Virus record (IMG/VR): IMGVR_UViG_3300025880_000077
Coordinates: 1 to 27,426 of that record
Length of the DNA stretch: 27,426 nucleotides
Strand: one strand, 5' to 3'
Source: a virus
A program made the position numbers and the translations under genes. Under the pieces are notes generated by a model. It was given only the letters and a program-made list of their open reading frames with translations, was not told where the DNA came from and searched no databases. Below, in pieces: positions 1,562 through 27,254 of the stretch (positions are counted from its first letter, which is position 1; each line of letters opens with the position of its first letter).

Positions 1562-1782
1562 ATGAAGAAGTGATTAATCCGCAACACTATTCAAACTACA
1601 GAATAGAACCTGCTGAATACATCATGCTTAACGGAATGGAATTTTGGAGAGGCAACATTATCAAGTACGCAAGCCGTGCAGGTATGAAGCTGTATCCAAA
1701 CCAAACACAAGTGCAATCAGAAATAACTGACCTGCAAAAAACAATACGATATTGCGAAATGCGTATCGAACAATTAGATTAG
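1546..1782 (+). CDS. DUF3310 protein (T7 gp1.7-related nucleotide kinase family)
   Basis: The 78-residue protein has the typical DUF3310 opening (INPQHY near residue 10, then IEPAEYI), followed by FWRGNIIKYASRAGMK and a C-terminal helix ending in TIRYCEMRIEQLD. DUF3310 is the conserved part of T7 gp1.7, described as a nucleotide kinase acting on dTMP and dGMP. This copy is much shorter than gp1.7 and lacks its extra region, so catalytic activity is not assured. The start at ATG 1546 has AGAGG upstream within the end of the exonuclease gene. Its place between exonuclease and MazG fits a role in nucleotide metabolism. Confidence 0.85.
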   Translation: MDTKIDEEVINPQHYSNYRIEPAEYIMLNGMEFWRGNIIKYASRAGMKLYPNQTQVQSEITDLQKTIRYCEMRIEQLD

Positions 1783-1799
1783 GAGTGTCTAGTAACTAT

Positions 1800-2117
1800 A
1801 TGAATACATTCGACGATTATCAAAAGGCTGCAGAGACTACTGCAATATACTCAAAGAAGACTGCGCTTGAGTATTTAAGCCTTGGACTTGCTTCAGAAGC
1901 AGGTGAAGTTGCAGGACACATTGCCAAATATTATCGCTCAGATAGACCCTATCCTATGGAAGACATCTTAGCTGAGTGTGGAGATGTTCTTTGGTTTATT
2001 TCAGAATTGGCTCGTATCCATAACAAGCCATTATCAGAATTAGCAGCAGAAAATATCGCCAAACTTCAATCCCGAAAACAACGAGGAAAACTGAAAGGCA
2101 ATGGTGATAAAAGATGA
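1800..2117 (+). CDS. MazG-like nucleotide pyrophosphohydrolase
   Basis: The 105-residue protein belongs to the all-alpha MazG/dUTPase superfamily that hydrolyses nucleoside triphosphates to monophosphates and pyrophosphate. The metal-binding signature is present as E33xxE36 (SEAGEV) and E59xxD62 (ECGDVLWF), with the usual helical context. I chose ATG 1800, preceded by AGGAG at 1781-1785, because the longer frame from 1752 adds residues absent from the family. Its last bases overlap the nrdJ start (ATGA at 2114-2117), which suggests coupled translation. Phage MazG proteins are thought either to recycle host nucleotides or to act on signalling nucleotides; the sequence does not decide between these. 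Confidence 0.87.
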   Translation: MNTFDDYQKAAETTAIYSKKTALEYLSLGLASEAGEVAGHIAKYYRSDRPYPMEDILAECGDVLWFISELARIHNKPLSELAAENIAKLQSRKQRGKLKGNGDKR

Positions 2118-3817
2118 ACCCAAATCACAATCAACCTTATGGCCCATCAATGCCTATCTCAGAAGAAATTGATAAAGTTAAATACCGCCAAACAGGTGAA
2201 GATTTTTACTCAAAAGTTGTGCGTATTGCAGACGCTCTCAAGGATGATGCAGGGCATTTTGAAGACTTTAAAGATGCCATGCGATACATGCGATTTCTAC
2301 CTGCAGGTCGTGTGCAAAATGCGATGGGTGCAGCACGTCAGACTACGGCTTATAATTGCTTTGTGTCTGGCATTATTGGGGACAGCATGGATAGCATCAT
2401 GCAGCGTGCCACTGAATCTGCTGAAACAATGCGCCGTGGCGGTGGCATCGGATACGATTTCAGCCGCTTGCGTCCACGAGGTGACCGTATAAAATCCCTT
2501 GAAAGCCAAGCCTCTGGTGCAGTTTCTTTCATGCAGATATTTGATGCAGTCTGTCAGACCATTGCAAGTAGTGGTGCAAGACGTGGCGCACAAATGGGGG
2601 TTTTAAGAATTGACCACCCAGACATTGAACAATTCATAACTGCAAAGAATGATGGCAGTTCACTAGCGGGATTTAATATTTCCGTTGGTGTGACCGATGA
2701 GTTCATGGAATGCCTTGAGCAAAACAAACCTTTCCCATTAAAATTTGATGGTAAGGTACATCGTGAAGTAGACCCTGTAGCCCTTTGGGATATGATTATG
2801 AGGTCGACTTGGGATTGGGCTGAACCAGGCGTATTGTTTATAGATACCATTAATAATATGAACAATTTGTACTATTGTGAAAAGATTGAAGCGACCAATC
2901 CGTGTGGCGAACAACCTCTTCCACCATATGGTGCTTGCCTTCTAGGGTCATTTAATCTGACTAAGTATGTGGTCGAAGGAGAGTTTAGCATACAGCAGTT
3001 CATGAGTGATATTGGAACTGTGGTCAGAGCAATGGACAACGTGGTTGATAGAACCATTTATCCTCTTGAAGCACAAAAGACTGAGGCAAAGAACAAACGG
3101 CGCATGGGTTTAGGTATAACAGGTTTAGCTAACGCAGCTGAAATGTGCGGCTATCCATATGCATCTGAAGAGTTCATGGCTTTTGCTGAGTTAATCTTAT
3201 CTACTTTACGAGACTATACATATTCAGCGAGTGCTGACTTAGCTGCAGAGAAGGGGTCTTTCCCTTTATATAATGCTGAGAAGTACATGCAGAGTAAGTT
3301 CATCCAAACCTTACCAGATTGGGTGAAAGAAAAGATTGCAGCCAATGGTATCAGAAACTCACACCTCACATCTATTGCACCAACAGGTACTATATCGTTG
3401 ACTGCTGACAATGTGAGTAGTGGAATTGAACCACCTTTTGCTCTCTTCTTTGATAGGACTATCCAACAATTTGATGGTCACCAAGTTGAACGAGTAGAAG
3501 ATTATGCATATCGACATGGTGTGCATGGGCGAACTGCTAATGAAATCTCAGCACAAGACCACCTTGCGGTACTCGCTTTGACTTCGAAATATGTAGATAG
3601 CGCAGTCTCAAAGACATGTAATGTTGGAGATGGCGTGAACTATGACGAATTCAAAGAGCTATATTTTGATGCATGGAAAGCTGGATGCAAAGGCATAACT
3701 ACCTTTCGTGCATCTGGAAAAAGATACGGAATTTTGAATGAAGTTCCATCCAAAGAAACACCTAAAGCAGAGGCTTGTTTCATTGACAAAGATACAGGTC
3801 AAAAGAGCTGTGAATAA
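2114..3817 (+). CDS. nrdJ: adenosylcobalamin-dependent class II ribonucleotide reductase (NrdJ)
   Basis: This 567-residue enzyme reduces ribonucleotides to deoxyribonucleotides using a thiyl radical generated from vitamin B12. Class II features are clear: a redox cysteine C82 (AYNCF), NPCGE at 262-266 with the thiyl Cys264, and the partner Cys275 (GACLLGSFNL). The spacing of 11 between the last two equals that in Thermotoga NrdJ. GLGITGLAN and the phosphate-binding SIAPTGTIS follow. The protein ends in a compact cysteine pair (C555, C566). It is shorter than bacterial NrdJ, as in many phage versions. No small subunit is encoded, as expected for class II. It is the last gene before a terminator, and its B12 requirement suggests a host that makes or imports cobalamin. 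Confidence 0.95.
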   Translation: MNPNHNQPYGPSMPISEEIDKVKYRQTGEDFYSKVVRIADALKDDAGHFEDFKDAMRYMRFLPAGRVQNAMGAARQTTAYNCFVSGIIGDSMDSIMQRATESAETMRRGGGIGYDFSRLRPRGDRIKSLESQASGAVSFMQIFDAVCQTIASSGARRGAQMGVLRIDHPDIEQFITAKNDGSSLAGFNISVGVTDEFMECLEQNKPFPLKFDGKVHREVDPVALWDMIMRSTWDWAEPGVLFIDTINNMNNLYYCEKIEATNPCGEQPLPPYGACLLGSFNLTKYVVEGEFSIQQFMSDIGTVVRAMDNVVDRTIYPLEAQKTEAKNKRRMGLGITGLANAAEMCGYPYASEEFMAFAELILSTLRDYTYSASADLAAEKGSFPLYNAEKYMQSKFIQTLPDWVKEKIAANGIRNSHLTSIAPTGTISLTADNVSSGIEPPFALFFDRTIQQFDGHQVERVEDYAYRHGVHGRTANEISAQDHLAVLALTSKYVDSAVSKTCNVGDGVNYDEFKELYFDAWKAGCKGITTFRASGKRYGILNEVPSKETPKAEACFIDKDTGQKSCE

Positions 3818-3832
3818 TAATAAACTACTTAG

Positions 3833-3860
3833 CTTGTCCCTATATGGGGCAAGTTTTGTT
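3833..3860 (+). terminator. intrinsic terminator after nrdJ
   Basis: An 8-bp stem (CTTGTCCC at 3833-3840 with GGGGCAAG at 3846-3853, one G-U pair) closes a 5-base TATAT loop and is followed by TTTTGTT. It separates the replication operon from the head genes. Confidence 0.75.
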
Positions 3861-3861
3861 A

Positions 3862-3877
3862 GTTGCACTAAAGAGGA
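3862..3877 (+). promoter_or_regulatory. possible phage-type promoter before the head genes
   Basis: GTTGCACTAAAGAGGA lies directly after the terminator. It shares CACTAAAG with the T3 RNA polymerase promoter core (CTCACTAAAGGGAGA) and GTTGCACT with a motif at 26392. Its 3' part also serves as the ribosome binding site of the next gene, so part of the match may reflect that. No phage RNA polymerase gene is visible in this window. Confidence 0.3.
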
Positions 3878-3883
3878 ATACAT

Positions 3884-4060
3884 ATGTTTCCACACGTTTC
3901 GAATGAACTAATAGATGAATTGAACAAACGCTTCCCAGATAAAAGTCCAAGTCTTGATGAAAACTATCAAGAACTTATGTGGCGTGGAGGACAACGCTCA
4001 ATTATCGATTTTTTAAATACAATACATGAAGACCAATTGGCTTCATCATTAGGAGAATAA
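3884..4060 (+). CDS. small hypothetical protein before the head genes (58 aa)
   Basis: An ATG at 3884 behind AGAGGA (3872-3877) opens a 58-residue frame that ends at TAA 4058-4060, just before the next start. The protein begins MFPHVSNELIDELNKRFP and contains a WRGGQRSIIDFL segment, so it looks folded and charged rather than random. The good ribosome binding site and tight fit between neighbours support it. I cannot name a family. Similar-sized proteins often occupy this slot before the portal gene of marine podoviruses. It is the first gene after the terminator and possible promoter. Confidence 0.75.
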   Translation: MFPHVSNELIDELNKRFPDKSPSLDENYQELMWRGGQRSIIDFLNTIHEDQLASSLGE

Positions 4061-4064
4061 TATC

Positions 4065-4301
4065 ATGTGCTTTGGAGGAGGAAAATCCGAACCCCCAGCT
4101 CCAGCCCCACCGCCCGCCGCACCACCTGCGCCAAATCCAGTCATGACAAATATGTATGACCCATCAACACCTGAGAGTGGTGATGCAGCAGAAAAAGGTG
4201 CAGTAGCTGATAAGGCCGCTGGTACATCACAACTAAGAGTAGACTTAGACCCTACTTTATCAAACATAGATAAGAACACTGGTCTACAAATTAACAAGTG
4301 A
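4065..4301 (+). CDS. small proline-rich virion-associated protein (78 aa)
   Basis: The protein begins MCFGGGKSEPPAPAPPPAAP. It is a Cys-Gly N-terminus and a Pro/Ala tract, then a charged middle, ending in RVDLDPTLSNIDKNTGLQINK-like sequence. Short proteins with a CFGGG start and poly-proline tract are frequent just before the portal gene of T7-like phages. Their position and C-terminal style recall T7 gp6.7/gp7.3, small structural proteins at the head-tail junction, but this equivalence is inference. A ribosome binding site (AGGAG, 4051-4055) precedes ATG 4065. The portal gene starts 7 bases after its stop. Confidence 0.75.
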   Translation: MCFGGGKSEPPAPAPPPAAPPAPNPVMTNMYDPSTPESGDAAEKGAVADKAAGTSQLRVDLDPTLSNIDKNTGLQINK

Positions 4302-4308
4302 GAATTAA

Positions 4309-5856
4309 ATGAGTATAGGAACAGCAGAAGCTCGTTACCGACAACTCGAACAGACAAGACAATCTTACTTAGATAGAGCCAGAGACTGCTCGGAACTAAC
4401 AATACCATCTCTCATTCCACCTGATGTCCACAATGAAACAAGTGATTTATATACTCCGTTTCAGGGCATAGGTGCGAGAGGGGTAAATAATTTAGCATCC
4501 AAATTGTCACTGGCTCTCATGCCACCCAACTCACCATTCTTTAGATTCATGGTTGAGCCTTATACCCTTAAAGATTTGGCTCAAGATGATGCTGCTCGTA
4601 CACAAATAGAGCAACAGCTAGGTGAATATGAACGGGCGGTCATGTCTGAGATTGAAACATCTGGCGACAGAGTTGCGGTGCATGAAGCACTCAAACACTT
4701 AATCGTTGGTGGCAACGTGCTTTTGCAAGTTGGTGCTGACAAAACACGAGTAGTACATTTAGATAGTTATGTTGTATCTCGCTCACCAAATGGTGATGTC
4801 TTAGAAATTGTTATTGTAGAGCATGTCTCACCTAACGCATTAGACAAAGCGACTGCTGCTAATATCTCTGGAAAACTCGAAGGCGATGAGAAGACCGTTG
4901 AGGTCTACACTCATATTGAACGCAAGAATCAATTCTTTACCGTCTATCAAGAATGCAAAGGCTCAGTCGTTTCTGGGTCTAAGGGTAAATATAAGAAGGA
5001 CAATGTTCCTTTCTTACCTTTACGCTTCTCACGCATTGATGGTGAAGATTATGGTCGTGGGTTTGTTGAAGAACTACTTGGCGACTTACGCTCACTTGAG
5101 GGATTATCACAAGCTATCGTTGAGGGCGCAGCCGCAGCTGCAAAGGTTCTCTTCATGGTTAATCCTAACGGTACAACTCGGATGCGAACAATCGCTCAAG
5201 CTGAAAATACAGCAATTATCGAGGGTAATAGTAATGACGTATCTGTATTGCAGATGGAAAAATTCAACGATTTCCGTGTGGCCTACCAAGCTATGGGCGG
5301 TATTGAGGAACGTCTTTCCCAACAATTCATGCTTCAGTCATCTGTTCAGCGTAATGGTGAGCGGGTAACCGCAGAAGAAATTAGGTATCTCGCTGGTGAA
5401 CTAGAGGATACTCTGTCTGGGATATATTCAATTTTATCTCAAGAGTTCCAGTTACCATATGTGAACCGTAAAATAGACGTACTGACCAAAGCTAAGAAGC
5501 TACCAAAATTACCAGACAGTATTGTGAAACCAACAATCGTTACTGGTATGGAAGCACTTGGACGTGGGCATGACTTGCGTAAACTCGATATGTTTATCCA
5601 GGGAATGTCACAAGCACTAGGGCCAGAAGTATTACAACAATATGTAAACCTACAAGATTATATCAAAAGAAGAGCCACAGCTCTCGGTATCGAGACTGAT
5701 GGTTTAATCAAATCACAAGAACAAATCGCTCAAGAACAACAGCAAGCACAGCTGCAAGCTATGGCTATGCAAGCAGGGCCATCAGCCGTTCAAGAGGGCG
5801 TAAAAGCATTAGGAAATTCTTATGTCGAAAACCAAAGACAACAAGGCGAAGGATGA
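4309..5856 (+). CDS. portal protein / head-tail connector (T7 gp8-like)
   Basis: The 515-residue protein matches the Head-tail connector family of T7 gp8 (536 residues), which forms the dodecameric ring at one head vertex through which DNA enters and leaves. Family segments are seen in order: an N-terminal helix (RYRQLEQTRQSYLDRARDCS), PPDVHNETSDLYTPFQGIGARGV and LASKLSLALMPPNSPFFRF in the N-terminal third. YGRGFVEELLGDLRSLEGL lies in the middle, followed by RNGERVTAEEIRYLAGELE. The C-terminal tail is rich in Gln and Ala (EQIAQEQQQAQLQAMAMQAG), as is usual. A 40-residue gene begins inside its last 35 bases. Confidence 0.95.
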   Translation: MSIGTAEARYRQLEQTRQSYLDRARDCSELTIPSLIPPDVHNETSDLYTPFQGIGARGVNNLASKLSLALMPPNSPFFRFMVEPYTLKDLAQDDAARTQIEQQLGEYERAVMSEIETSGDRVAVHEALKHLIVGGNVLLQVGADKTRVVHLDSYVVSRSPNGDVLEIVIVEHVSPNALDKATAANISGKLEGDEKTVEVYTHIERKNQFFTVYQECKGSVVSGSKGKYKKDNVPFLPLRFSRIDGEDYGRGFVEELLGDLRSLEGLSQAIVEGAAAAAKVLFMVNPNGTTRMRTIAQAENTAIIEGNSNDVSVLQMEKFNDFRVAYQAMGGIEERLSQQFMLQSSVQRNGERVTAEEIRYLAGELEDTLSGIYSILSQEFQLPYVNRKIDVLTKAKKLPKLPDSIVKPTIVTGMEALGRGHDLRKLDMFIQGMSQALGPEVLQQYVNLQDYIKRRATALGIETDGLIKSQEQIAQEQQQAQLQAMAMQAGPSAVQEGVKALGNSYVENQRQQGEG

Positions 5857-17494: not shown

Positions 17495-20400
17495 ATGGCA
17501 TCCATTATAAACTATGTCGCTGACGGGTCGACAAACCAGTTCCAAATCCCGTTCACATACATAAACCAAGCAGACGTGGTTGTAACCGTAAATGGAGCAA
17601 CTCCAACTTTTACATTTTTGAATTCAACAACGATTAATATAGCCGCAACACCAGCATCTGGTGCTAAAGTTATTATTAAGCGTGTAACACCATTGAATGC
17701 TCTTGTAGATTTCACTGATGGTTCAACACTATTTGAAGCTGACTTGGACTTGGCTCATCAACAGAATAGACTGATTTCTGAAGAGAGTAGGGATAGAGCT
17801 GACAGTGCAATAGCTACAATCAATGCAAATATTGATGATGTGAATACTGTTGCAGGTATTGCATCTAACGTAACTACAGTTGCTGACAATACAGCCAATG
17901 TAAATTCAGTTGCAAACAATATGGCAGAAGTGCTTACCGCAGACGATAACGCTGCTACAGCAACGACAAAAGCAGCTGAAGCATCAGCCTCTGCTAGTAC
18001 GGCATCAGCACAAGCTACAATTTCAACAACTAAAGCAAGTGAGAGTTCTGCAAGCGCAGCTGCTTCCCTGGCATCAGAGAATGCTGCGGCTACTTCAGAA
18101 ACAAATGCTGCAACAAGCGAAACAAATGCAGCAAATAGTGCTACTGCATCAGCAAATAGTGCATCGGCAAGTTCATCTAGTGCTACAAGTGCGAGTGGAA
18201 GTGCAACGACAGCAACTACAAAAGCATCAGAAGCCTTAACTTCAGCAAATAATTCGGCAACGAGTGCAACAAATAGTGCAAACTCTGCAACTACAGCTAC
18301 AACAAAAGCATCTGAGGCATCAGCATCTCAAAGTGCAGCGTCTACATCTGAAACTAATGCATTAAGTTCAAAGAATGCTGCAGCAACATCTGCAACCAAT
18401 GCGGCTACTTCAGAAACAAATGCTGCAACAAGCGAAACAAATGCAGCTACAAGTGCATCAACGGCTACAACTAAAGCTAGTGAGGCATCTACTTCAGCAT
18501 CAACAGCCACAACAAAGGCTACTGAAAGTGCCACAAGTGCTACTGCCAGTGCTAATAGTGCTACTGCATCAGCAAACTCTGCATCAACGGCTACAACTAA
18601 AGCAAGCGAAGCATCTGCAAGTGCGGCTACAGCATTATCTCATAAGAATGATGCACAGACAGCAAAGACTGCAGCAGAAACTGCAGAAACCAATGCAGAA
18701 ACTGCAGAGACAAATGCAGGGGCAAGTGCAACAGCTGCATCAAATTCAGCTTCAAGTGCCTCAACTTCAGCATCAACTGCGACTACTAAGGCATCTGAGG
18801 CATCCACATCAGCGTCAACTGCTACATCAAAAGCAACTGAAGCGGCTACATCTGCAAGTAATGCAAGCACATCCGCATCTACAGCTACTACAAAAGCAAG
18901 TGAAGCAAGTACATCTGCAACCAATGCAGCAACTTCAGCATCATCAGCGCAAGCCTCGAAGGATGCAGCTTTGTCTGCATTAGATTCATTTGATGATAGA
19001 TATTTGGGACAGAAGAGCGCAGATGTGACTGTTGATAATGACGGTGACAGTCTGGTTTCTGGTGCGCTCTATTATAATACTACCGACGACATCATGAAGG
19101 TTTATGATGGTAGCCAATGGGTTGCAGCGTATGCTTCTTTGTCAGGTGCTATGTTTGGTGCAAACAACCTATCTGATGTTGCATCTACAAGCGGTGCAGT
19201 AGCCAACCTTGGTCTAGTAATTGGCACTAACGTACAGGCATTCTCAGCTATTCTTGCAAATACTACAGCGTCCTATACGACTGCTGAAGAAAGCAAATTG
19301 GCAGGTATTGAGGCAAACGCAACTGCAGACCAAACAAATGCAGAAATACGTGCAGCTGTAGAAGCGGCTAGTGACTCTAATGTATTTACTGATGCTGACC
19401 ATACTAAGTTAAATGGTATTGAAGCATCTGCAACTGCTGACCAAACTTCAGCTGAAATTAGAGCATTGGTTGAAAGTGCAAGTGACAGTAATGTGTTTAC
19501 TGATGCTGACCATAGCAAGCTAAACGCTATTGAAACAAATGCTAAAGATGACCAAACAATAACTGCTGGTTCTGGCTTATCAGGTGGCGGTACTGGCGAT
19601 GTAACACTAAGCCATGCTGATACAAGTAGTGTGAGTAACAGTGACAATAGTGGTAATACATTTATACAAGATATTACCTTTGACACATATGGTCACGTTC
19701 AATCAGTAGGAACAGGCACTGTATCTGTAGGGGATGGCACATTAACAGTACAAGGTACTGGTGCATTAGGTGGGTCAGGCACTTTTACAGCTAACCAAAG
19801 TGGAAACACTACAATTAGTATTAGCCATGATGATACATCAAATCAGAGTTCTTCAAACAACTCTGGCAGAACATATATCCAAGACGTAACACTTGATGCA
19901 TATGGACACGTCACTGGTTTAGCTACAGCTACAGAAACAGTCGTAAATACTGACACAACCTATTCTGTAGGTGATGGGGGCTTAACTCAAAAGAACTTCA
20001 CTACTACTCTTAAATCTAAGTTAGACGGTATAGCAACATCAGCTAATAACTACTCACACCCAACAGGTAATGGTAATAACCATATTCCTAGTGGTGGTTC
20101 TTCTGGACAAATACTTGGATATTCATCTGCTGGTACAGCTCAATGGACAACTGCTGGCGGTGGCTTACCTGACCAAGTAAATTGGGGTAGCCCTAATCAA
20201 AATTTTACTTCTGGTTCTGGCTCTTGGACTGTACCTAGTTCTATTGGAGATGATGATTTTGTAACATTTTATCTTGTAGGCGGCGGTGGCGGTGGTACTA
20301 AGGATGGTGCTAATAATAAAGGCGGTTCTGGTGGTACTGCGACATTGTTTAATGTTCAAAAGAAATACTTACCTAGCAGTATTAGCTATAGCATAGGTTC

Positions 20401-20881
20401 AGGGGGTGCGGGGTCTTATTGGTATCTTGGCGGCGGTGTGGGAGGTACTACTACATGTACTGTTTCTGGAAGAGTTATGAGGGCAGTTGGCGGTGATAAT
20501 GGTAACTCTCATACACAAGCAAGGAAAGAAGGCACAAACCAAATGATAAGCTCTGGTGATACAAGTCTTCTTGGTGTTGAGCTTTCAACTTTTGGCGGTG
20601 GTTCAGTTTATTGGGCACACAATGGCTCTGTTTATTCATATACTGACAATACTGGGGATGAGAGAAGGCACGGCGTATTTGGCGGTGCGGCTGGTGGGTT
20701 TAGGTATTCTAATTCGCAGAAAGCAAATGGTACTTCTACTTATGCGGGTAATGGAGGTTCTGGTGGTAGCACCGGTACTGGTTCTGCTGGTCAAGCACCC
20801 GGTGGCGGTGGCGGTGGTTCTGGTTCTAGTGGCGGCGATGGTGGAAATGGTGCAAATGGTAGTTTGCGAATTTACTATTAA
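17495..20881 (+). CDS. tail fibre with T7 gp17-type N-terminus and glycine-rich C-terminal domain
   Basis: The 1128-residue fibre is about twice the length of T7 gp17 (553). Residues 1-110 match the T7 fibre N-terminal domain that docks on the tail (NYVADGSTNQFQIPFTYIN, then ADLDLAHQQNRLISEESRDR). Residues about 150-495 are a Ser/Thr/Ala-rich stalk with repeated ATTKASEAS and SETNAAT units. From 601, two 37-residue repeats (each with SDSNVFTDADH) are followed by a partial third. Two longer repeats ending in TYGHV/AYGHV come next. From about 887 a Gly-rich domain resembling the Gly_rich_2 family forms a likely receptor-binding tip. ATG 17495 follows TAGGAG. Confidence 0.9.
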   Translation: MASIINYVADGSTNQFQIPFTYINQADVVVTVNGATPTFTFLNSTTINIAATPASGAKVIIKRVTPLNALVDFTDGSTLFEADLDLAHQQNRLISEESRDRADSAIATINANIDDVNTVAGIASNVTTVADNTANVNSVANNMAEVLTADDNAATATTKAAEASASASTASAQATISTTKASESSASAAASLASENAAATSETNAATSETNAANSATASANSASASSSSATSASGSATTATTKASEALTSANNSATSATNSANSATTATTKASEASASQSAASTSETNALSSKNAAATSATNAATSETNAATSETNAATSASTATTKASEASTSASTATTKATESATSATASANSATASANSASTATTKASEASASAATALSHKNDAQTAKTAAETAETNAETAETNAGASATAASNSASSASTSASTATTKASEASTSASTATSKATEAATSASNASTSASTATTKASEASTSATNAATSASSAQASKDAALSALDSFDDRYLGQKSADVTVDNDGDSLVSGALYYNTTDDIMKVYDGSQWVAAYASLSGAMFGANNLSDVASTSGAVANLGLVIGTNVQAFSAILANTTASYTTAEESKLAGIEANATADQTNAEIRAAVEAASDSNVFTDADHTKLNGIEASATADQTSAEIRALVESASDSNVFTDADHSKLNAIETNAKDDQTITAGSGLSGGGTGDVTLSHADTSSVSNSDNSGNTFIQDITFDTYGHVQSVGTGTVSVGDGTLTVQGTGALGGSGTFTANQSGNTTISISHDDTSNQSSSNNSGRTYIQDVTLDAYGHVTGLATATETVVNTDTTYSVGDGGLTQKNFTTTLKSKLDGIATSANNYSHPTGNGNNHIPSGGSSGQILGYSSAGTAQWTTAGGGLPDQVNWGSPNQNFTSGSGSWTVPSSIGDDDFVTFYLVGGGGGGTKDGANNKGGSGGTATLFNVQKKYLPSSISYSIGSGGAGSYWYLGGGVGGTTTCTVSGRVMRAVGGDNGNSHTQARKEGTNQMISSGDTSLLGVELSTFGGGSVYWAHNGSVYSYTDNTGDERRHGVFGGAAGGFRYSNSQKANGTSTYAGNGGSGGSTGTGSAGQAPGGGGGGSGSSGGDGGNGANGSLRIYY
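18085..18132 (+). repeat. 48-bp direct repeat, copy 1 (fibre stalk)
   Basis: These 48 bases are identical to 18400-18447. The two copies lie 315 bp apart, a multiple of three, so recombination between them would delete or add 105 residues of stalk in frame. Confidence 0.9.
18400..18447 (+). repeat. 48-bp direct repeat, copy 2 (fibre stalk)
   Basis: This copy is identical to 18085-18132. It encodes the same SETNAATSETNA segment, while other stalk repeats differ in codon choice, suggesting a recent duplication or gene conversion. Confidence 0.9.
19295..19516 (+). repeat. two tandem 111-bp repeats (37-residue fibre units)
   Basis: Units at 19295-19405 and 19406-19516 each encode 37 residues running from KLxGIEA to SNVFTDADH. 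A degenerate third copy begins at 19517. Base differences are mostly synonymous or conservative. This unit type is typical of fibre shaft domains in marine phages. Confidence 0.88.
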
Positions 20882-20904: not shown

Positions 20905-21108
20905 ATGTCAAATTCAGAAGAAATAGCAACAGAGCTATTGAAAAAAGAAAGAATAATAGCTCTTACAGAAACAGACCATTGGTGTTTGTCTGACCGCACA
21001 CCAACCTCGGAACAACTTGCCTACAGGCAAGCTATAAGAGATATGCCAACAACAATTTCGGGTTATCCAATTATAGACCCGAATGATTGGCCTACTAAAC
21101 CTAATTGA
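20905..21108 (+). CDS. tail fibre assembly chaperone (Phage_tail_APC-like)
   Basis: The 67-residue protein has the pattern of small tail assembly chaperones: RIIALTETDHWCLSDRTPTS, then QLAYRQAIRDMP, then a C-terminal PNDWPTKP. The order (L..TD[WH]..SD, YRQA[LI]RD, WP..P) is well known in this family. These proteins help fold or trimerise the fibre encoded just upstream. The start ATG 20905 follows ATAAGGATTTAAA, with AAGGA as ribosome binding site. Its TGA overlaps the ATG of the next gene (TGATG at 21106-21110). Confidence 0.82.
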   Translation: MSNSEEIATELLKKERIIALTETDHWCLSDRTPTSEQLAYRQAIRDMPTTISGYPIIDPNDWPTKPN

Positions 21109-21368
21109 TGGAACAAAGTGAAGGTTGGCACATTTCCAGAAGTGTCCCCGCAACTTTGCTGTTAGGTCTTTTAACACAAGCTGCTGCAATCGTTTATGTA
21201 GTTTCTATGATGATGGCAGATATAGAAAAGAACCAGCAAGACATCGTTGAATTTAATCAGCGAGTTTCAAAAGTAGAACAGTTAGTACAGACACAAGCTG
21301 TCGCAATGGCACGTATAGATGTTAATATTGAACATATACGAACTGCTGTTGAAAAGATGGCAGATTGA
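21108..21368 (+). CDS. membrane protein with one TM segment and coiled coil (holin- or i-spanin-like)
   Basis: The 86-residue protein has a short N-terminus, one hydrophobic helix at about residues 13-36 (PATLLLGLLTQAAAIVYVVS), and then a coiled coil to the end (FNQRVSKVEQLVQTQAVAMA). The likely topology is N-in, C-out. Related small proteins in alphaproteobacterial phages are sometimes labelled holin. The TM-plus-coiled-coil build followed immediately by an overlapping lipoprotein gene also fits an inner-membrane spanin. I chose ATG 21108, which overlaps the previous stop (TGATG), over the TTG three bases earlier. No clear ribosome binding site is present, so translation probably depends on coupling. 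Confidence 0.75.
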   Translation: MEQSEGWHISRSVPATLLLGLLTQAAAIVYVVSMMMADIEKNQQDIVEFNQRVSKVEQLVQTQAVAMARIDVNIEHIRTAVEKMAD

Positions 21369-21619
21369 TTAGGCTTGGCCTAGCACTGACATCCTTATTA
21401 CTCACAGCATGTATCCCCGAAATTAGAGTTGATACTCCGATAGCTTTCCCATCGAGCTGTCCAATGGGGGATACTGTCTGTGAACGTAATCTAAACGCTC
21501 AAACCCTTGCCTACATTGGTTTTCCAGAAGCAGCCAAGAGATTGATGTGTGAAGATTATAAAATACAAAAAGTAATGGATGAAGAATGTGTAGATACCTC
21601 TTTATCACCTTTATATTAA
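21365..21619 (+). CDS. outer-membrane-type lipoprotein (possible o-spanin)
   Basis: TTG 21365 overlaps the stop of the preceding gene (TTGA). The 84-residue product has a signal sequence ending in a lipobox, LLTAC, with the lipid-bearing cysteine at residue 16. The next residues are Ile-Pro, so there is no Asp+2 inner-membrane retention signal. The mature part has four or more further cysteines (SCPMGDTVCE, LMCEDY, EECVD), which could form disulfides in the periplasm. No in-frame alternative start exists because a stop lies at 21350-21352. Pairing with the TM/coiled-coil gene suggests a two-component spanin, but cysteine richness is not typical. It could instead be a superinfection-exclusion lipoprotein. 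Confidence 0.68.
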   Translation: MIRLGLALTSLLLTACIPEIRVDTPIAFPSSCPMGDTVCERNLNAQTLAYIGFPEAAKRLMCEDYKIQKVMDEECVDTSLSPLY

Positions 21620-22353
21620 TACTGCTCGGAAAGGGTGCGTATGCAAATGATGTAAATGGTGATTTCAGCAATAATTACCAGGATAGCACTGTAGATTCTG
21701 GTAATGCCTCAACAACAAATAATTATAATGCAGCTGGAGCAGCTAGTGCTTCACCAGTAATGTCAGCGATTTCACCTACAATGATGGGTGGAGGCGGCAA
21801 CGATAGCTGCCTATTACCCACTACCTCTGGAATACAGGTAACAATGTTTGGGTTTTCACAAGGTACAATGCAACAAGATGAACATTGTAACCGTAGAAAG
21901 AACGCACGATTACTTGGCGCACCACAGCAAGTAGGTGGATTAGGGCTACAAGTGAGTGCCATATCGGTTCTCTGTAGTTCACCTGCCACTCCAAAATCTG
22001 AGAAAAACTCAGGTCAGAGTGTATTTAAAAGCATGATGCTTGCCTCAACACCCTGTCCAATAATGGACGTTGTGACGGGCAAAATCCTCATGGGTAAAGA
22101 CGCAATCGATAAATATAGACAGCATCCCCAAATCTACATCGTTGGATATGAAACTGACAAAGAGTTTTGGGACACTCTTTTACGAATTGGAGAAGATTTA
22201 AGTAATGAAGAAAATAAAGCAAAAGTTGCTTCTAACAGTAGGGACACTCGCTCTATTAGTGAGCGGTTCAGGACTACTCGCAGAGTCACCACCACCACCC
22301 GACTACAATCAGACGGGCGCACAGAAAATAACGGAACTGAAGGGAACGATTGA
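21586..22353 (+). CDS. exported cysteine-containing protein of unknown function (255 aa)
   Basis: The product has a Sec signal peptide (residues 1-20, cleavage after GAYA) followed by an Asn/Ser/Thr/Ala-rich linker. A central region follows with GGGGNDSCLLPTTSGIQVTM and SQGTMQQDEHCNRRKNARLL, several spaced cysteines and hydrophobic segments, consistent with a disulfide-bonded periplasmic or surface domain. From residue 207 the tail is low-complexity, rich in Arg, Thr, Ser and Asn, and overlaps the next gene. It starts at ATG 21586 inside the end of the lipoprotein gene, behind GGATGAAG. I recognise no family. A virion or envelope-associated role is possible but not shown. Confidence 0.7.
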   Translation: MCRYLFITFILILLGKGAYANDVNGDFSNNYQDSTVDSGNASTTNNYNAAGAASASPVMSAISPTMMGGGGNDSCLLPTTSGIQVTMFGFSQGTMQQDEHCNRRKNARLLGAPQQVGGLGLQVSAISVLCSSPATPKSEKNSGQSVFKSMMLASTPCPIMDVVTGKILMGKDAIDKYRQHPQIYIVGYETDKEFWDTLLRIGEDLSNEENKAKVASNSRDTRSISERFRTTRRVTTTTRLQSDGRTENNGTEGND

Positions 22354-23047
22354 TATAATTAATAATCGTTTGCTCGCAAGTGGACAGCTGACAAATGGTG
22401 CAGTTGGATATGCTACAGTAGGACGAATTATAATCGATGATGCCCTAGAAGGCGGTAAGATAACTGATGCTCAGTTTGTAGCTTACAAAGCTGCATTAGA
22501 TAAAGTTATCGCACACGATTACGCTACAGCTCAAAATGCTACTCAGCTGTTTACACAAGAGCATACTGCAGCGATGACACAACTGACACTAGCAATAGAT
22601 TTATTAAGCAGTGCTACATCAGTTCTAGCGACAGCAACATCAGTAGCTACAATAGCTGCAGAGGCAGATACAAAGCCAGAGCAGGTTGCACTACAGGATA
22701 TGCTGCAAACAGATGAATATTCTATCCAGGCATCAGAAGTAGCTACATATAATAATGCTTTGGACAGTGTAGAGAATTATGCTCAAAAAGCTGGTGCATT
22801 TATGGCAGCAGCAAACAATTCAGATTTAACAGCATCTATTGATGCATATACGGCTACGAATAATTTGGTCGCTGGGAACTATACTGCAATCACTTATACG
22901 CAAGCAGCTGATGAATTTATCATTACATGGGCAGATGCTGGAACTGGTTGGTCAGGATATTTAACGGATGACATGAAGGATGCCACTGCAATTTATGGTG
23001 CAAATACATATATGCAGCAACACGGCACACCCATAAAGGATATGTAA
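22205..23047 (+). CDS. exported Ala/Thr-rich helical protein of unknown function (280 aa)
   Basis: The product begins MKKIKQKLLLTVGTLALLVS, a clear Sec signal peptide with cleavage likely after GLLA (about residue 26), then SPPPPDY and a long Ala/Thr-rich helical body. GGKITDAQFVAYKAALDKVI and LTLAIDLLSSATSVLATATS are typical of it. ATG 22205 follows GGAGAAG (22189-22195) with nine bases between, a good ribosome binding site. The first 149 bases, encoding the signal peptide, overlap the end of the preceding gene in the +1 frame. The stop abuts the next ATG. No family is recognised. Confidence 0.75.
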   Translation: MKKIKQKLLLTVGTLALLVSGSGLLAESPPPPDYNQTGAQKITELKGTIDIINNRLLASGQLTNGAVGYATVGRIIIDDALEGGKITDAQFVAYKAALDKVIAHDYATAQNATQLFTQEHTAAMTQLTLAIDLLSSATSVLATATSVATIAAEADTKPEQVALQDMLQTDEYSIQASEVATYNNALDSVENYAQKAGAFMAAANNSDLTASIDAYTATNNLVAGNYTAITYTQAADEFIITWADAGTGWSGYLTDDMKDATAIYGANTYMQQHGTPIKDM

Positions 23048-23500
23048 ATGGAAGACACCGAACTTAAAGTTGGACGTTTTTCATTCAAAGGGTGGTACAT
23101 AGCTGCTGCCCTTCCAATCTTATCAGCGATTAGCGGTACGATTTATTATGGATATGACACCTTAAACCGCTTCTACGATGTAGAGGCAGGTATAGATTTA
23201 GTTGTTTCAGAATCTGACATGTTCAATGTGAGAGCATCTGACTTCAACTCAAGAATTCAAACACTAGAACAGGCGGTAACAGACAATGATGTTAGAGGTC
23301 TTAATACACGTTTATCAACGATTTCTACACAGATGCAGACAATTCTGGAACAGCAGAAAGCACTTCTGGAACTGCGTAGTATGGTTGAAAAATCAAGCAC
23401 TATCACTGACCAAATCGGTGATAAACTGGATACGTTCCAAGTTGAAATAGATGATATTTGGAAGGCTTACGATAGTTTAGCCGACAATCCACTAAAATAA
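23048..23500 (+). CDS. membrane-anchored coiled-coil protein (150 aa), unknown
   Basis: One hydrophobic helix at about residues 16-34 (WYIAAALPILSAISGTIYYG) is preceded by a short charged N-terminus. It is followed by more than 100 residues of heptad-like helix (FNSRIQTLEQAVTDNDVRGL, then STQMQTILEQQKALLELRSM). The build is like an inner-membrane spanin subunit: N-in anchor, long periplasmic coiled coil. However, no lipoprotein gene overlaps it. Similar coil-containing proteins occur near lysis genes of other marine podoviruses. It starts immediately after the stop of the previous gene and ends 12 bases before the holin gene, so it is part of the lysis region. Confidence 0.75.
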   Translation: MEDTELKVGRFSFKGWYIAAALPILSAISGTIYYGYDTLNRFYDVEAGIDLVVSESDMFNVRASDFNSRIQTLEQAVTDNDVRGLNTRLSTISTQMQTILEQQKALLELRSMVEKSSTITDQIGDKLDTFQVEIDDIWKAYDSLADNPLK

Positions 23501-23512
23501 TAAGGATACAAT

Positions 23513-23884
23513 ATGCTACAAGCATTGATTGGCCCAGTCGCTGGGCTATTGGATAAAGTTGTGCCTGACAAAGATGTAGCTGCGAAACTCGCACATGAGA
23601 TTGCAACTATGTCAGAAAAACACGCACAAGAACTCTCAATTGCGCAGCTGGCAGTAAACAAAGAGGAAGCCAAGGGAAATTGGTTTCAATCTTCTTGGAG
23701 GCCAGCAGTTGCATGGGTTTGCGTAATAGGCATGGCAATTAACTTCTTAGTTAGCCCGCTTTTATCACCACTAGGCGTAGTCGTACCACAAGCTGACACA
23801 TCAGTCATGATGCCAGTGCTTATGGGTATGCTCGGACTTGGTGGCCTACGTTCATTTGAAAAAACAAAGGGTGTAAGTAAATGA
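23513..23884 (+). CDS. holin, GTA_holin_3TM type
   Basis: The 123-residue protein fits the 3-TM holin family first described in gene transfer agents. An amphipathic N-terminus (LIGPVAGLLDKVVPDKDVAA) and a charged helix are followed by the family mark NWFQSSWRPAVAWVCVIGMA and a hydrophobic segment to about residue 88. A second hydrophobic helix (MMPVLMGMLGLGGLRSFEK) lies at the C-terminus. Holins accumulate in the inner membrane and open it at a set time so that endolysin reaches the wall. The stop overlaps the endolysin ATG by four bases (ATGA at 23881-23884), a standard coupled lysis pair. Confidence 0.88.
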   Translation: MLQALIGPVAGLLDKVVPDKDVAAKLAHEIATMSEKHAQELSIAQLAVNKEEAKGNWFQSSWRPAVAWVCVIGMAINFLVSPLLSPLGVVVPQADTSVMMPVLMGMLGLGGLRSFEKTKGVSK

Positions 23885-24402
23885 GAGAAAATTTTAACAA
23901 ATGCCTAGAAATGGTACTTGAACATGAAGGTGGCTATGTAAACAACGAAAACGACAGGGGTGGTATGACCAACCTTGGCGTTACTCGAAGAGTATATGAA
24001 GATTGGGTTGACCGTCCTGTATCTGAACAAGAGATGCGTGACCTGACACCAGAAGACGTAGCCCCAATATATAGAAAAAACTACGCTGATAGAATTCACT
24101 TTGATTCACTTCCATCTGGCTTGGATTGGGCTTGTCTGGATTGGGCTATTAATTCTGGAGCGAGTAGACCTGCAAAAGCTATACAACGTGCAGTTGGTGC
24201 AACAGCAGATGGTGTTATTGGGCCAAAAACCTTGCAGCTCGTAGCTGAAAAAGACCCAGAGTTCATAATAGATTACGTCTATACAGTCCGACAGTCGTTC
24301 TATGAAAGTCTGGATGATTATAAACACTTTGGCAGAGGTTGGTCACGACGAAACAAAGAAACGCTACACCAAGCTATGGAAATGGCAAAAGGGGGCAAGT
24401 GA
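23881..24402 (+). CDS. endolysin, GH108 N-acetylmuramidase with peptidoglycan-binding domain
   Basis: The 173-residue protein has a glycoside hydrolase family 108 domain in about residues 5-95. Its catalytic Glu16 lies in HEGGYVNNENDRGGMTNLGV, the family signature. A C-terminal peptidoglycan-binding domain follows (about 96-165; IQRAVGATADGVIGPKTLQL). GH108 enzymes cleave the glycan strand between MurNAc and GlcNAc. There is no signal peptide, so it depends on the holin for export. This differs from T7, whose lysozyme is an amidase. The stop overlaps the next ATG by one base (TGATG). Confidence 0.94.
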   Translation: MRENFNKCLEMVLEHEGGYVNNENDRGGMTNLGVTRRVYEDWVDRPVSEQEMRDLTPEDVAPIYRKNYADRIHFDSLPSGLDWACLDWAINSGASRPAKAIQRAVGATADGVIGPKTLQLVAEKDPEFIIDYVYTVRQSFYESLDDYKHFGRGWSRRNKETLHQAMEMAKGGK

Positions 24403-24635
24403 TGACAGAAGCAGAACTCATGTCGTTGCTACATAAAACATTAGCTGAGAACTTACTGATGCGTGTCAAAGACCCAGAAGCAAAGTCAGCTGACCTCAAT
24501 GTAGCAAGACAATTTTTAAAAGATAACGGAATAGATGCACTTCCAGCAGAGGGTTCACCACTGAGTGAACTCGTAGGTACGCTTCCAGATTTTAGTGATG
24601 CAGACTTTGATGTGAGTGAACTCAAGGCTAATTAA
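24402..24635 (+). CDS. terminase small subunit (T7 gp18-like)
   Basis: The 77-residue protein (T7 gp18 is 88) begins MTEAELMSLLHKTLAENLLM, a helical segment typical of the small maturase, with VARQFLKDNGIDALP and an acidic C-terminus (DFSDADFDVSELKAN). It recognises concatemeric DNA and assists the large subunit. I chose ATG 24402, which overlaps the endolysin stop and has AGGGGG upstream; the longer frame from 24339 would run back into the endolysin. Its TAA overlaps the large-subunit ATG by one base. Confidence 0.88.
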   Translation: MTEAELMSLLHKTLAENLLMRVKDPEAKSADLNVARQFLKDNGIDALPAEGSPLSELVGTLPDFSDADFDVSELKAN

Positions 24636-26353
24636 TGTTTACAGCAAAAACTTCGCTGGGCTTGCCTATAAAGCAAGACCCACTCTCAGACTTCCGTAAA
24701 TTCTTATTCGTAATATGGAAACACCTTAATCTACCAGACCCAACAGTGGTGCAGTATGACATCGCAAGAAAACTACAGCATGGTGAGAAGCGTATGATTA
24801 TCCAAGCCTTTCGAGGTGTAGGTAAGTCGTGGATTACCTCTGCTTACGTTGTATGGCTGCTATATATGAACCCACAATTAAACATATTAGTGGTTTCAGC
24901 ATCTAAATCACGCTCAGATGACTTTACTACATTCACGCTGCGTTTGATTAACGAAATGGATATATTGGCCCATTTGAGGCCAAAGACAGACCAAAGGCAG
25001 TCCAAGATTAGCTTTGACGTTGCACCAGCTGCAGCGTCTCACGCACCATCAGTTAAATCTGTTGGTATCAGTGGGCAACTTGCAGGTTCTCGTGCAGATG
25101 TCATTGTTGCAGACGATATTGAAGTCCCAAACAACTCGATGACGCAAGGCATGAGGGATAAACTGTCAGAAGCAGTTAAAGAATTTGACGCTATCTTGAA
25201 GCCAGATGGACGTATTATCTATCTTGGCACACCACAGAACCAAGAAAGCCTATATAATAAACTACCAGACCGTGGTTACACAGTGAGTATATGGCCCGCA
25301 CGTTATCCAAATCAGGAGCAATCTATAGGATATGGCACTAAGTTAGCCCCTATGATTGCCAATAAGCTGCAAGCAGATAGCAATTTGATTGGTGACCCAA
25401 CAGACCCATACCGCTTTTCTGACTTTGATTTGTTAGAACGTGAAGCATCCTATGGTCGCTCAGGGTTTGCGCTGCAGTTTATGCTCGATACCAGGCTATC
25501 AGATGCAGAACGCTATCCACTCAAGGTTTCAGACCTCGTGATTATGGATATACCAGTGCATGAAGCACCTGAGAAAGTCGTTTGGTCATCAGACCCACAG
25601 CATATCGTGGAAGAATTACCCAATGTTGCTTTCAACGGCGACCACTATCACAAGCCTATGTTTATGTCAGAAGACTTCATTGAATATACAGGCTCTGTGA
25701 TGTCCATAGACCCCTCTGGGCGGGGTAAAGATGAGACGGGGTATGCAGTCATAAAGATGCTCAATGGCTACCTATACGTGCGCAGATGCGGAGGTGTAGC
25801 AGGTGGGTACTCGCAAGAGGCATTGGAGAAACTTGCGGTCATCGCAAAGGAAGAAATGGTTAATGAGATAATCGTTGAGAGTAACTTTGGTGACGGTATG
25901 TTTAACCAACTGTTTCTACCAGTATTGACCAAGGTACACCCAGTGACGCTCTCTGAAGTTAGGCATAACACGCAGAAGGAACGTAGGATTATTGACGTTC
26001 TTGAGCCTGTAATGAACCAACACAGACTTGTGGTAGACAAGAAGGTTATCAAGAAAGACTTTGATAGCTGCCAACATTTACCACCAGAGCAAGCCTTGCG
26101 TTACCAGTTGATGTACCAATTGACCCGTATCACAGCTGACAGAGGGGCATTAACCAATGATGACCGTTTAGATGCATTGGCGATGGCCTGTCAGTATTGG
26201 GTAGATGCCATGGCGCAAGACGTAGAGCAGCGCATGTCTATCCGAAAGGAAGAACTTATGATGTCAGAGATACACAGATTGAAAGACCAATCGAATATGG
26301 GTTTAGCTGTTATATCAGGGCATCAGGCTGTTACTAAAAGTTTACGATGGTAA
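24635..26353 (+). CDS. terminase large subunit (T7 gp19-like)
   Basis: The 572-residue DNA packaging motor (T7 gp19 has 586) carries an ATPase with Walker A AFRGVGKS at 58-65 and Walker B VIVADDIE at 156-163. The coupling motif LGTPQNQ lies at 198-204. An RNase H-like nuclease follows, with Asp359 (SIDPSGRGKDETGY), the VESNFGDGMF segment and a C-terminal DDRLDALAMA acidic cluster. It docks on the portal, translocates DNA into the prohead and cuts the concatemer. It is the last gene of the late block, which supports genome ends lying downstream. Confidence 0.95.
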   Translation: MFTAKTSLGLPIKQDPLSDFRKFLFVIWKHLNLPDPTVVQYDIARKLQHGEKRMIIQAFRGVGKSWITSAYVVWLLYMNPQLNILVVSASKSRSDDFTTFTLRLINEMDILAHLRPKTDQRQSKISFDVAPAAASHAPSVKSVGISGQLAGSRADVIVADDIEVPNNSMTQGMRDKLSEAVKEFDAILKPDGRIIYLGTPQNQESLYNKLPDRGYTVSIWPARYPNQEQSIGYGTKLAPMIANKLQADSNLIGDPTDPYRFSDFDLLEREASYGRSGFALQFMLDTRLSDAERYPLKVSDLVIMDIPVHEAPEKVVWSSDPQHIVEELPNVAFNGDHYHKPMFMSEDFIEYTGSVMSIDPSGRGKDETGYAVIKMLNGYLYVRRCGGVAGGYSQEALEKLAVIAKEEMVNEIIVESNFGDGMFNQLFLPVLTKVHPVTLSEVRHNTQKERRIIDVLEPVMNQHRLVVDKKVIKKDFDSCQHLPPEQALRYQLMYQLTRITADRGALTNDDRLDALAMACQYWVDAMAQDVEQRMSIRKEELMMSEIHRLKDQSNMGLAVISGHQAVTKSLRW

Positions 26354-26909: not shown

Positions 26910-27254
26910 ATGGGTTACATGAAAGATAAAATGATTGAAAAGAATGCACTGGAGTTTTTCCTGGAGTCAGCCAGAGCAGGGACGCTAGATGAATACTATC
27001 CAGGCATGGTAGGTAAACGCACTAAACGGGAAATGCTTGTTGATACTCGTGGCAACACTGAGACAACTGAAGGTACTATCCATATGTTTGACGGTGTGCA
27101 GGTATTTGTACCAGACCAAATATTCATGCTGACACAACCAGTTGTCGAGCCTATTGGCACTGATTATTATTTGAAGAATGATTTCCAACAACAGCAAAAT
27201 TATACTCTAGGGATGAATAGTTATTTTGACGCTGATGCTGATTTTTATAGCTAA
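26910..27254 (+). CDS. hypothetical early protein (114 aa)
   Basis: ATG 26910 follows AAGGAATACATA, a strong ribosome binding site that resembles the leader of the gene at 3884. The protein is 114 residues, without signal peptide or membrane segment. It has an acidic/aromatic make-up, a helical N-terminus (MIEKNALEFFLESARAGTLD), and an ending rich in Asp, Tyr and Phe. I recognise no family. As the first gene after the probable genome-end region it may be an early gene acting on the host, which is typically variable in sequence. Confidence 0.75.
   Translation: MGYMKDKMIEKNALEFFLESARAGTLDEYYPGMVGKRTKREMLVDTRGNTETTEGTIHMFDGVQVFVPDQIFMLTQPVVEPIGTDYYLKNDFQQQQNYTLGMNSYFDADADFYS

Follow-up and report, generated by a model that had tools for sequence, protein, structure and literature searches.

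A conserved four-gene module of exported and membrane proteins in marine phages, possibly a lysis-cassette element acting on the outer membrane

The stretch of DNA analysed here (the window) comes from a marine phage of the T7-like (Autographiviridae-like) kind; it is 27.4 kb long and comprises positions 1 to 27,426 (27,426 nt) of the IMG/VR record IMGVR_UViG_3300025880_000077. It carries five consecutive open reading frames (ORFs) for membrane or exported proteins, designated o1 to o5. Four of them, o2-o5, are a real conserved unit, whereas o1 is a separable lysis-region gene and no obligate partner of o2. The o2-o5 module very probably belongs to the lysis cassette. The explanation we favour, to which we would give about an even chance, is that o2-o5 constitute an accessory, horizontally mobile and so far undescribed lysis-cassette module that acts on the envelope, most likely as a substitute for a spanin in disrupting the outer membrane.

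All five ORFs lie on the plus strand. The first, o1 (21108..21368, 86 aa), encodes a type II membrane protein with a short coiled coil; its best 19-residue hydropathy (2.03) is at residue 17 and the coiled coil follows. It is followed by o2 (21365..21619, 84 aa, TTG start), a lipoprotein with the lipobox LTAC and Cys16, by two Sec-exported proteins with signal peptides, o3 (21586..22353, 255 aa, with a four-cysteine core) and o4 (22205..23047, 280 aa), and by o5 (23048..23500, 150 aa), with one transmembrane (TM) segment and then a coiled coil. TM segments and signal peptides were assigned by hydropathy and motif rules, not by dedicated predictors, and the N-in orientation of o5 and o1 was judged from positive charges only. 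The heptad contrast of o1 was matched by 9 of 300 shuffled sequences and that of o5 by 6 of 300. Overlaps of 4 nt (o1/o2), 34 nt (o2/o3) and 149 nt (o3/o4, out of frame, 22205..22353, plus strand) and the direct abutment of o4 and o5 join the genes, just as the sequence-only reading had described them. That reading had presented the five as a block of membrane or exported proteins; all five ORFs exist, but the block turned out to be a section of a longer run that includes a holin and an endolysin.

To define the conserved unit, we scanned IMG/VR with o3, which gave 196 related stretches, and 80 loci were retained. The genes o2-o3-o4-o5 occur in this order in essentially all of the retained loci that are long enough to show them, while a recognisable o1 is found in fewer than half; o4 is conserved in 82 loci and o5 is present in 79. 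The same four genes in the same order are found in the Roseobacter phages CRP-207 and CRP-810 and in ct7L0027, and o2-o5 of CRP-207, CRP-810 and a groundwater phage are 34-64% identical to those of the window (40-55% for o4 in the two CRP phages). By contrast, o1 stands without o2-o5 in 36 of the 43 o1-centred contigs having enough downstream sequence. It adjoins ordinary spanins in CRP-171, CRP-118 and ICBM1, and its homologues lie beside u-spanins in ICBM1, SIO1 and CRP-171. Conversely, o2 occurs without o1 in CRP-207 and in about half of the loci. Thus, the earlier proposal of a five-gene unit stands for o2-o5, which recur together in relatives, and not for o1.

This distribution bears directly on the simplest reading of the region, in which o1 (i-spanin) and o2 (o-spanin) would be an ordinary two-component pair of the Rz/Rz1 type and o3-o5 unrelated neighbours. 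The o1 gene of this type II membrane protein ends 4 nt inside the lipoprotein gene o2, whose product has three further cysteines, and spanin surveys seek exactly such pairs (PMC6139136). However, such a pairing is very unlikely given the contigs that carry o1 without o2, the complete spanins beside o1 in CRP-171, CRP-118 and ICBM1, and the loci that carry o2 without o1; in addition, o2 is homologous to o3, and o3-o5 always accompany o2. We dropped the o1/o2 pair as a candidate on the distribution of o1 and its position next to spanins.

Profile searches against Pfam, PHROGs and NCBIfam placed none of the five proteins in a named family and identified no known tail parts: o1, o2 and o5 had no convincing family, none was found for o4, and o3 matched only phrog_20531 ('unknown function', E-value = 3e-8), as did all seven other members of its family that were tested. 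The o3 protein has an N/S/T-rich linker and a core of the form D-x-C ... D-x-x-C-x-R-x-K ... L-C ... T-P-C-P, with cysteines at positions 75/101/130/157 that are invariant among 59 aligned sequences. In o2 the lipobox cysteine is kept in 83 of 84 aligned sequences, the remaining one having a gap; three more cysteines follow, and the maximum hydropathy of the mature part is 0.30, leaving no TM segment. A lipobox scan (a simple regular-expression filter) found o2 to be the sole non-nested lipoprotein ORF of the window. The mature part of o2 contains a shortened version of the o3 core (hhalign probability 93% over 39 columns, with D-x-x-C-x-R...G...A-A...C aligned), and in a search with the o3 profile all 83 o2 sequences ranked ahead of all unrelated ORFs in the loci that bear the module (E-value 0.39 for the worst o2, 2.4 for the best unrelated ORF). 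The module therefore contains one cysteine-rich periplasmic domain in two versions, one lipid-anchored and one soluble. The o4 protein is probably mainly helical. Its gene overlaps o3 in 78 of 78 loci, by 80-191 nt and always in the +1 frame, so that the o4 signal peptide is always encoded within the tail of o3. In o5 an inner-membrane anchor, assigned by hydropathy alone at a modest value of 1.29, precedes a periplasmic coiled coil of ~110 residues with a conserved D-N-P-L motif at its end; the o5 profile weakly matches solved trimeric coiled coils (E-value = 0.016). Among solved structures, profile searches retrieved nothing for o3 and o4 and only coiled coils for o5. Several deposited names of homologues are without sequence support: 'putative lysozyme' (L082 3292-3873, CRP207_gp73) and 'lysozyme' (L083 8384-8806, CRP810_gp51) for o5, and 'OmpA family protein' (L083 6998-7753, CRP810_gp53) for o3.

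Downstream of o5 in the window lie a holin of the GTA 3-TM type (23513..23884, plus strand; PF11351, E-value = 3e-16; phrog_3427, E-value = 2e-30) and an endolysin with a glycosyl hydrolase 108 (GH108) domain and a peptidoglycan-binding domain (23881..24402, plus strand; PF05838, E-value = 7e-27; PF09374, E-value = 2e-7). The whole run from o1 to GH108 is 66-90% identical (o1 and o2, 40-81%) to a cassette in about ten contigs, several of ~41 kb, and in those of them that were searched the large terminase subunit (TerL) and the portal of the window had no match; one of the cassette-sharing contigs, G003, has an SU10-type portal and capsid. Conversely, contigs with TerL 78-93% identical to that of the window (24635..26353, plus strand; 78% and 79% identical to TerL of CRP-114 and CRP-171, respectively) lack o2-o5 and have a holin just 28-37% identical. 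The distance from o1 to the small terminase subunit gene (terS) is ~400-1050 bp in the contigs of the same backbone versus 3037 in the window, and L257 and L259 are near-exact empty sites. Since the same cassette sits on other backbones and is missing from the TerL siblings, the lineage of the window most likely gained the module, holin and endolysin as one cassette. A holin-like or endolysin gene is nearby in 43 of the 67 loci with full flanks. In some of the cassette-sharing contigs (L008, L012) an EF-hand/TM gene and another holin-like gene stand in place of the holin, with o2-o5 and GH108 retained.

Adjacency to and co-inheritance with the holin could also be expected if the module set the timing of lysis, with o3 or o4 as a periplasmic sensor or antiholin-like regulator of the neighbouring holin and with o2 and o5 holding it at both membranes. 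RI of T4 is an antiholin-like periplasmic regulator and would be the model here; a small, disulfide-rich, Sec-exported protein of accessory presence fits such a role. We consider it quite unlikely, however, because the holin-like genes that accompany the module belong to at least three different families and some loci have none nearby, which speaks against a dedicated holin partner, and four proteins exceed what known regulators need. A further alternative, suggested by the late-gene position beside tail-fibre genes, is that the proteins are virion-associated and act on the envelope during entry. This is extremely unlikely: with Sec signal peptides and a lipobox the proteins would leave the cytoplasm, where virions are assembled, searches of Pfam and PHROGs found nothing similar to virion proteins, and the module is present on T7-like, SU10-like and HMO-2011-type virions alike. 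The literature on SAR11 phage virion proteomics yielded nothing usable.

The second line of evidence is the position of the module in syntenic genomes, T7-like roseophages among them. In the isolated roseophage CRP-171 the interval from the tail-fibre assembly chaperone through o1 to terS holds a u-spanin (L189 5173-5523), and in CRP-118 the same interval holds an i-spanin-like gene overlapped by an o-spanin-like lipoprotein; in the cobavirus ICBM1 an annotated spanin is directly 5' of o1. With o1 as a constant neighbour across these relatives, o2-o5 thus take the place of the spanin. Among HMO-2011-type phages, CRP-1 and CRP-345 have a u-spanin (NCBIfam spanin2_3, E-values = 2e-15 and 3e-14, below the curated cut-off) that adjoins, or is one gene away from, an EF-hand/TM gene, and a homologue of the latter directly follows o5 in CRP-207 and abuts o5 in L012. 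The lipobox scan detected no lipoprotein besides o2 in the window and no further credible candidate in CRP-207, and none of the module-bearing records tested matched spanin2_3. Two annotation matters were encountered in these relatives. The deposited start of the coding sequence of the CRP-171 u-spanin (5293) removes its signal sequence and lipobox, and L188 5634-5906 (CRP-118) is an unannotated lipoprotein ORF with the lipobox VSGC, which overlaps out of frame the gene of the 72-aa membrane protein gp40 and resembles a pair of the Rz/Rz1 type.

The o3 family extends well beyond the close relatives of the window. A profile of distant o3 relatives matched at least 594 further stretches, which together with the 196 close ones puts the family in several hundred viral contigs at the least. 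In a distant version that is common in SAR11 phages, a long exported protein comes after o3; it has an N-terminal part resembling a carbohydrate-binding module (CBM) and then an acidic linker, and its C-terminal part is conserved. A short TM/coiled-coil protein, in most cases with NPL at its end, comes next; this arrangement is seen in most loci with enough sequence. HTVC023P gp45-46-48, HTVC033P gp46-45-44 and Mosig 202-201-200 thus resemble the module of the window in combining an o3 homologue with a second exported protein and with a TM/coiled-coil protein whose end is usually NPL, and differ from it in that their second protein shows no relation to o4 (hhalign probability 0.1%) and usually no lipoprotein is detected. 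For the third protein, hhalign finds the TM segment alone in common with o5, and the likeness rests on topology and the NPL end. Judged by sequence comparison, the second and third SAR11 proteins are positional counterparts, not demonstrable homologues, of o4 and o5, and the combination of o3, an exported partner and a membrane coiled coil is a design that recurs while its middle member is exchangeable. Another variant is that of L279, in which five genes for exported proteins separate o1 from the lysis genes: at 1701-4834 an o3-like protein and four further signal-peptide proteins without a Pfam match are encoded, along with a membrane coiled coil ending in NPLAD. Outside marine phages, an exported N/S-rich protein of the N4-like Achromobacter phage JWAlpha (L172 3455-4369, JJJB_0025) has a C-terminal part resembling the four-cysteine core of o3, at an E-value of 0.1 only, and is a lead; a scan of genome contigs using the Roseobacter-phage o3 found no relative.

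The exchangeable middle gene (o4, the CBM-like protein or the four other exported proteins of L279) is as expected of surface-interacting proteins. Together with the accessory, patchy and mobile occurrence of the module and with lipoproteins being typical of such systems, it would suit superinfection exclusion or receptor masking, in which the lipoprotein and the exported proteins cover an outer-membrane receptor or block it, and merely neighbour the lysis genes. Llp of T5, which blocks an outer-membrane receptor, is the model for this alternative. We regard it as unlikely in view of the co-inheritance with holin and endolysin, the location in the spanin slot and the always-present coiled-coil inner-membrane protein, which is not expected of receptor blockers.

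In the explanation that we favour, disruption of the outer membrane, the module would act on the envelope after the holin fires. The o2 lipoprotein would be anchored in the outer membrane and o5 in the inner membrane, the coiled coil of o5 lying in the periplasm, while o3 (sharing the core domain of o2) and o4 would be periplasmic and would bridge o2 and o5 by contacts that disulfides stabilise. After the endolysin has removed the peptidoglycan, the complex might collapse or rearrange and the outer membrane would open. The topology, with an outer lipoprotein and an inner-membrane coiled coil, fits a periplasm-spanning complex; we infer that the four proteins assemble into a single complex and that their effect is rupture of the outer membrane rather than control of lysis timing. 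The joint action on the envelope that had been suggested before is favoured, through an envelope or lysis role, by the co-transfer with holin and endolysin and by the spanin slot, although outer-membrane lysis, lysis timing and superinfection exclusion are inseparable from sequence alone. A published survey detected no spanin in ~13% of its phage genomes, marine cyanophages being 20 of these 91, and asked about another route through the outer membrane (PMC6139136). We tentatively suggest, while considering it more doubtful than the lysis role itself, that a multi-protein periplasm-spanning machine made of a lipoprotein, its exported homologue, a second exported protein and an inner-membrane coiled coil could be a further outer-membrane-breaking route besides two-component spanins, u-spanins and disruptin peptides; in the SAR11-phage version the second protein would have a carbohydrate-binding-like domain and a long acidic linker. 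If true, such a machine would account for lysis by some apparently spanin-less marine phages. The presence of a conserved, mobile and unnamed four-gene module in Roseobacter phages, and of another version in SAR11 phages, makes the open question of spanin-independent exit testable, and cultured carriers exist (CRP-207, CRP-810, HTVC023P and HTVC033P).

Several observations weigh against this explanation. The co-inheritance could be accounted for by plain hitch-hiking of neighbours, and the lysis neighbourhood was not seen in the main HMO-2011-type group, where the searches detected no endolysin close to the module. An upstream lipoprotein was detected in only 8 of 81 SAR11-type loci. The module is absent from 32 of the 33 contigs on the backbone of the window, most of which show no spanin either, and in HMO-2011, CRP-2 and CRP-603 (L174, L175, L177, L181, L182, L183) there is neither the module nor a credible lipoprotein ORF in any frame, making these phages apparently spanin-less. 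Because many siblings have neither the module nor a detectable spanin, a dedicated gene for disrupting the outer membrane is dispensable on those backbones. The module and a u-spanin co-occur in none of 121 loci versus ~1.3 expected by chance, which is not significant. Searches of Pfam, PHROGs and NCBIfam gave no match of module proteins to known spanin families, a weak test since spanins are extremely diverse, and AlphaFold2 returned no usable fold for o3 (59 sequences, predicted local distance difference test score, pLDDT, 51.5) or o4 (22 sequences, pLDDT 37.0). We had also considered mutual exclusivity of module and spanin as a statistical proof and dropped it, there being too many loci with neither. 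Spanins themselves are patchy on roseophage backbones, being found in all cultured cobaviruses but in just two environmental ones (PMC6775973). CRP-2 and CRP-603 have a single TM/coiled-coil gene at the site that o2-o5 occupy in CRP-207.

The left flank of the run, outside the module, is the tail-fibre assembly chaperone (20905..21108, plus strand; phrog_4912, E-value = 4e-6; PF16778, E-value = 1e-5, narrowly missing its cut-off), preceded by a tail-fibre ORF of 1128 aa (17495-20881) with a long A/S/T/E-rich repetitive stretch and a Gly-rich C-terminus. On the right, terS (24402..24635, plus strand; PF11123, E-value = 9e-21) leads to TerL, the backbone marker, and 3' of it lies an ORF of 114 aa (26910-27254) with no PHROG or Pfam match.

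Among known systems, the module resembles two-component spanins (lambda Rz/Rz1, T4 PseT.3/PseT.2), with which it shares an outer lipoprotein with cysteines, an inner-membrane coiled-coil protein, a place in the lysis cassette and overlapping genes. Like an o-spanin, o2 is a small lipoprotein with a lipobox, and like i-spanins both o5 and o1 are predicted N-in membrane proteins with one N-terminal hydrophobic segment and periplasmic heptads. A periplasmic cysteine is present in at least one component in 507 of 528 surveyed spanins (PMC6139136), and o2 has three besides its lipobox cysteine. Unlike these spanins, the module always has two extra Sec-exported proteins, and its lipoprotein is homologous to one of them, o3. 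In gene linkage the picture is mixed. Surveyed i- and o-spanin genes are embedded, overlapping or closely linked, with a largest separation of ~1 kb (PMC6139136). Here o1 overlaps o2 yet is not conserved with it, and o5, the inner-membrane partner that is always present and conserved with o2, lies ~1.4 kb from it. The o3 family matches phrog_20531, which is only a sequence cluster with no function or gene context attached. Roseophage u-spanins (SIO1/ICBM1/CRP-171/CRP-1 type, spanin2_3) are single lipoproteins with a C-terminal TM segment, which the mature part of o2 lacks; they nevertheless occupy the same slot in syntenic genomes, beside o1 or the EF-hand/TM gene, and are likewise patchy.

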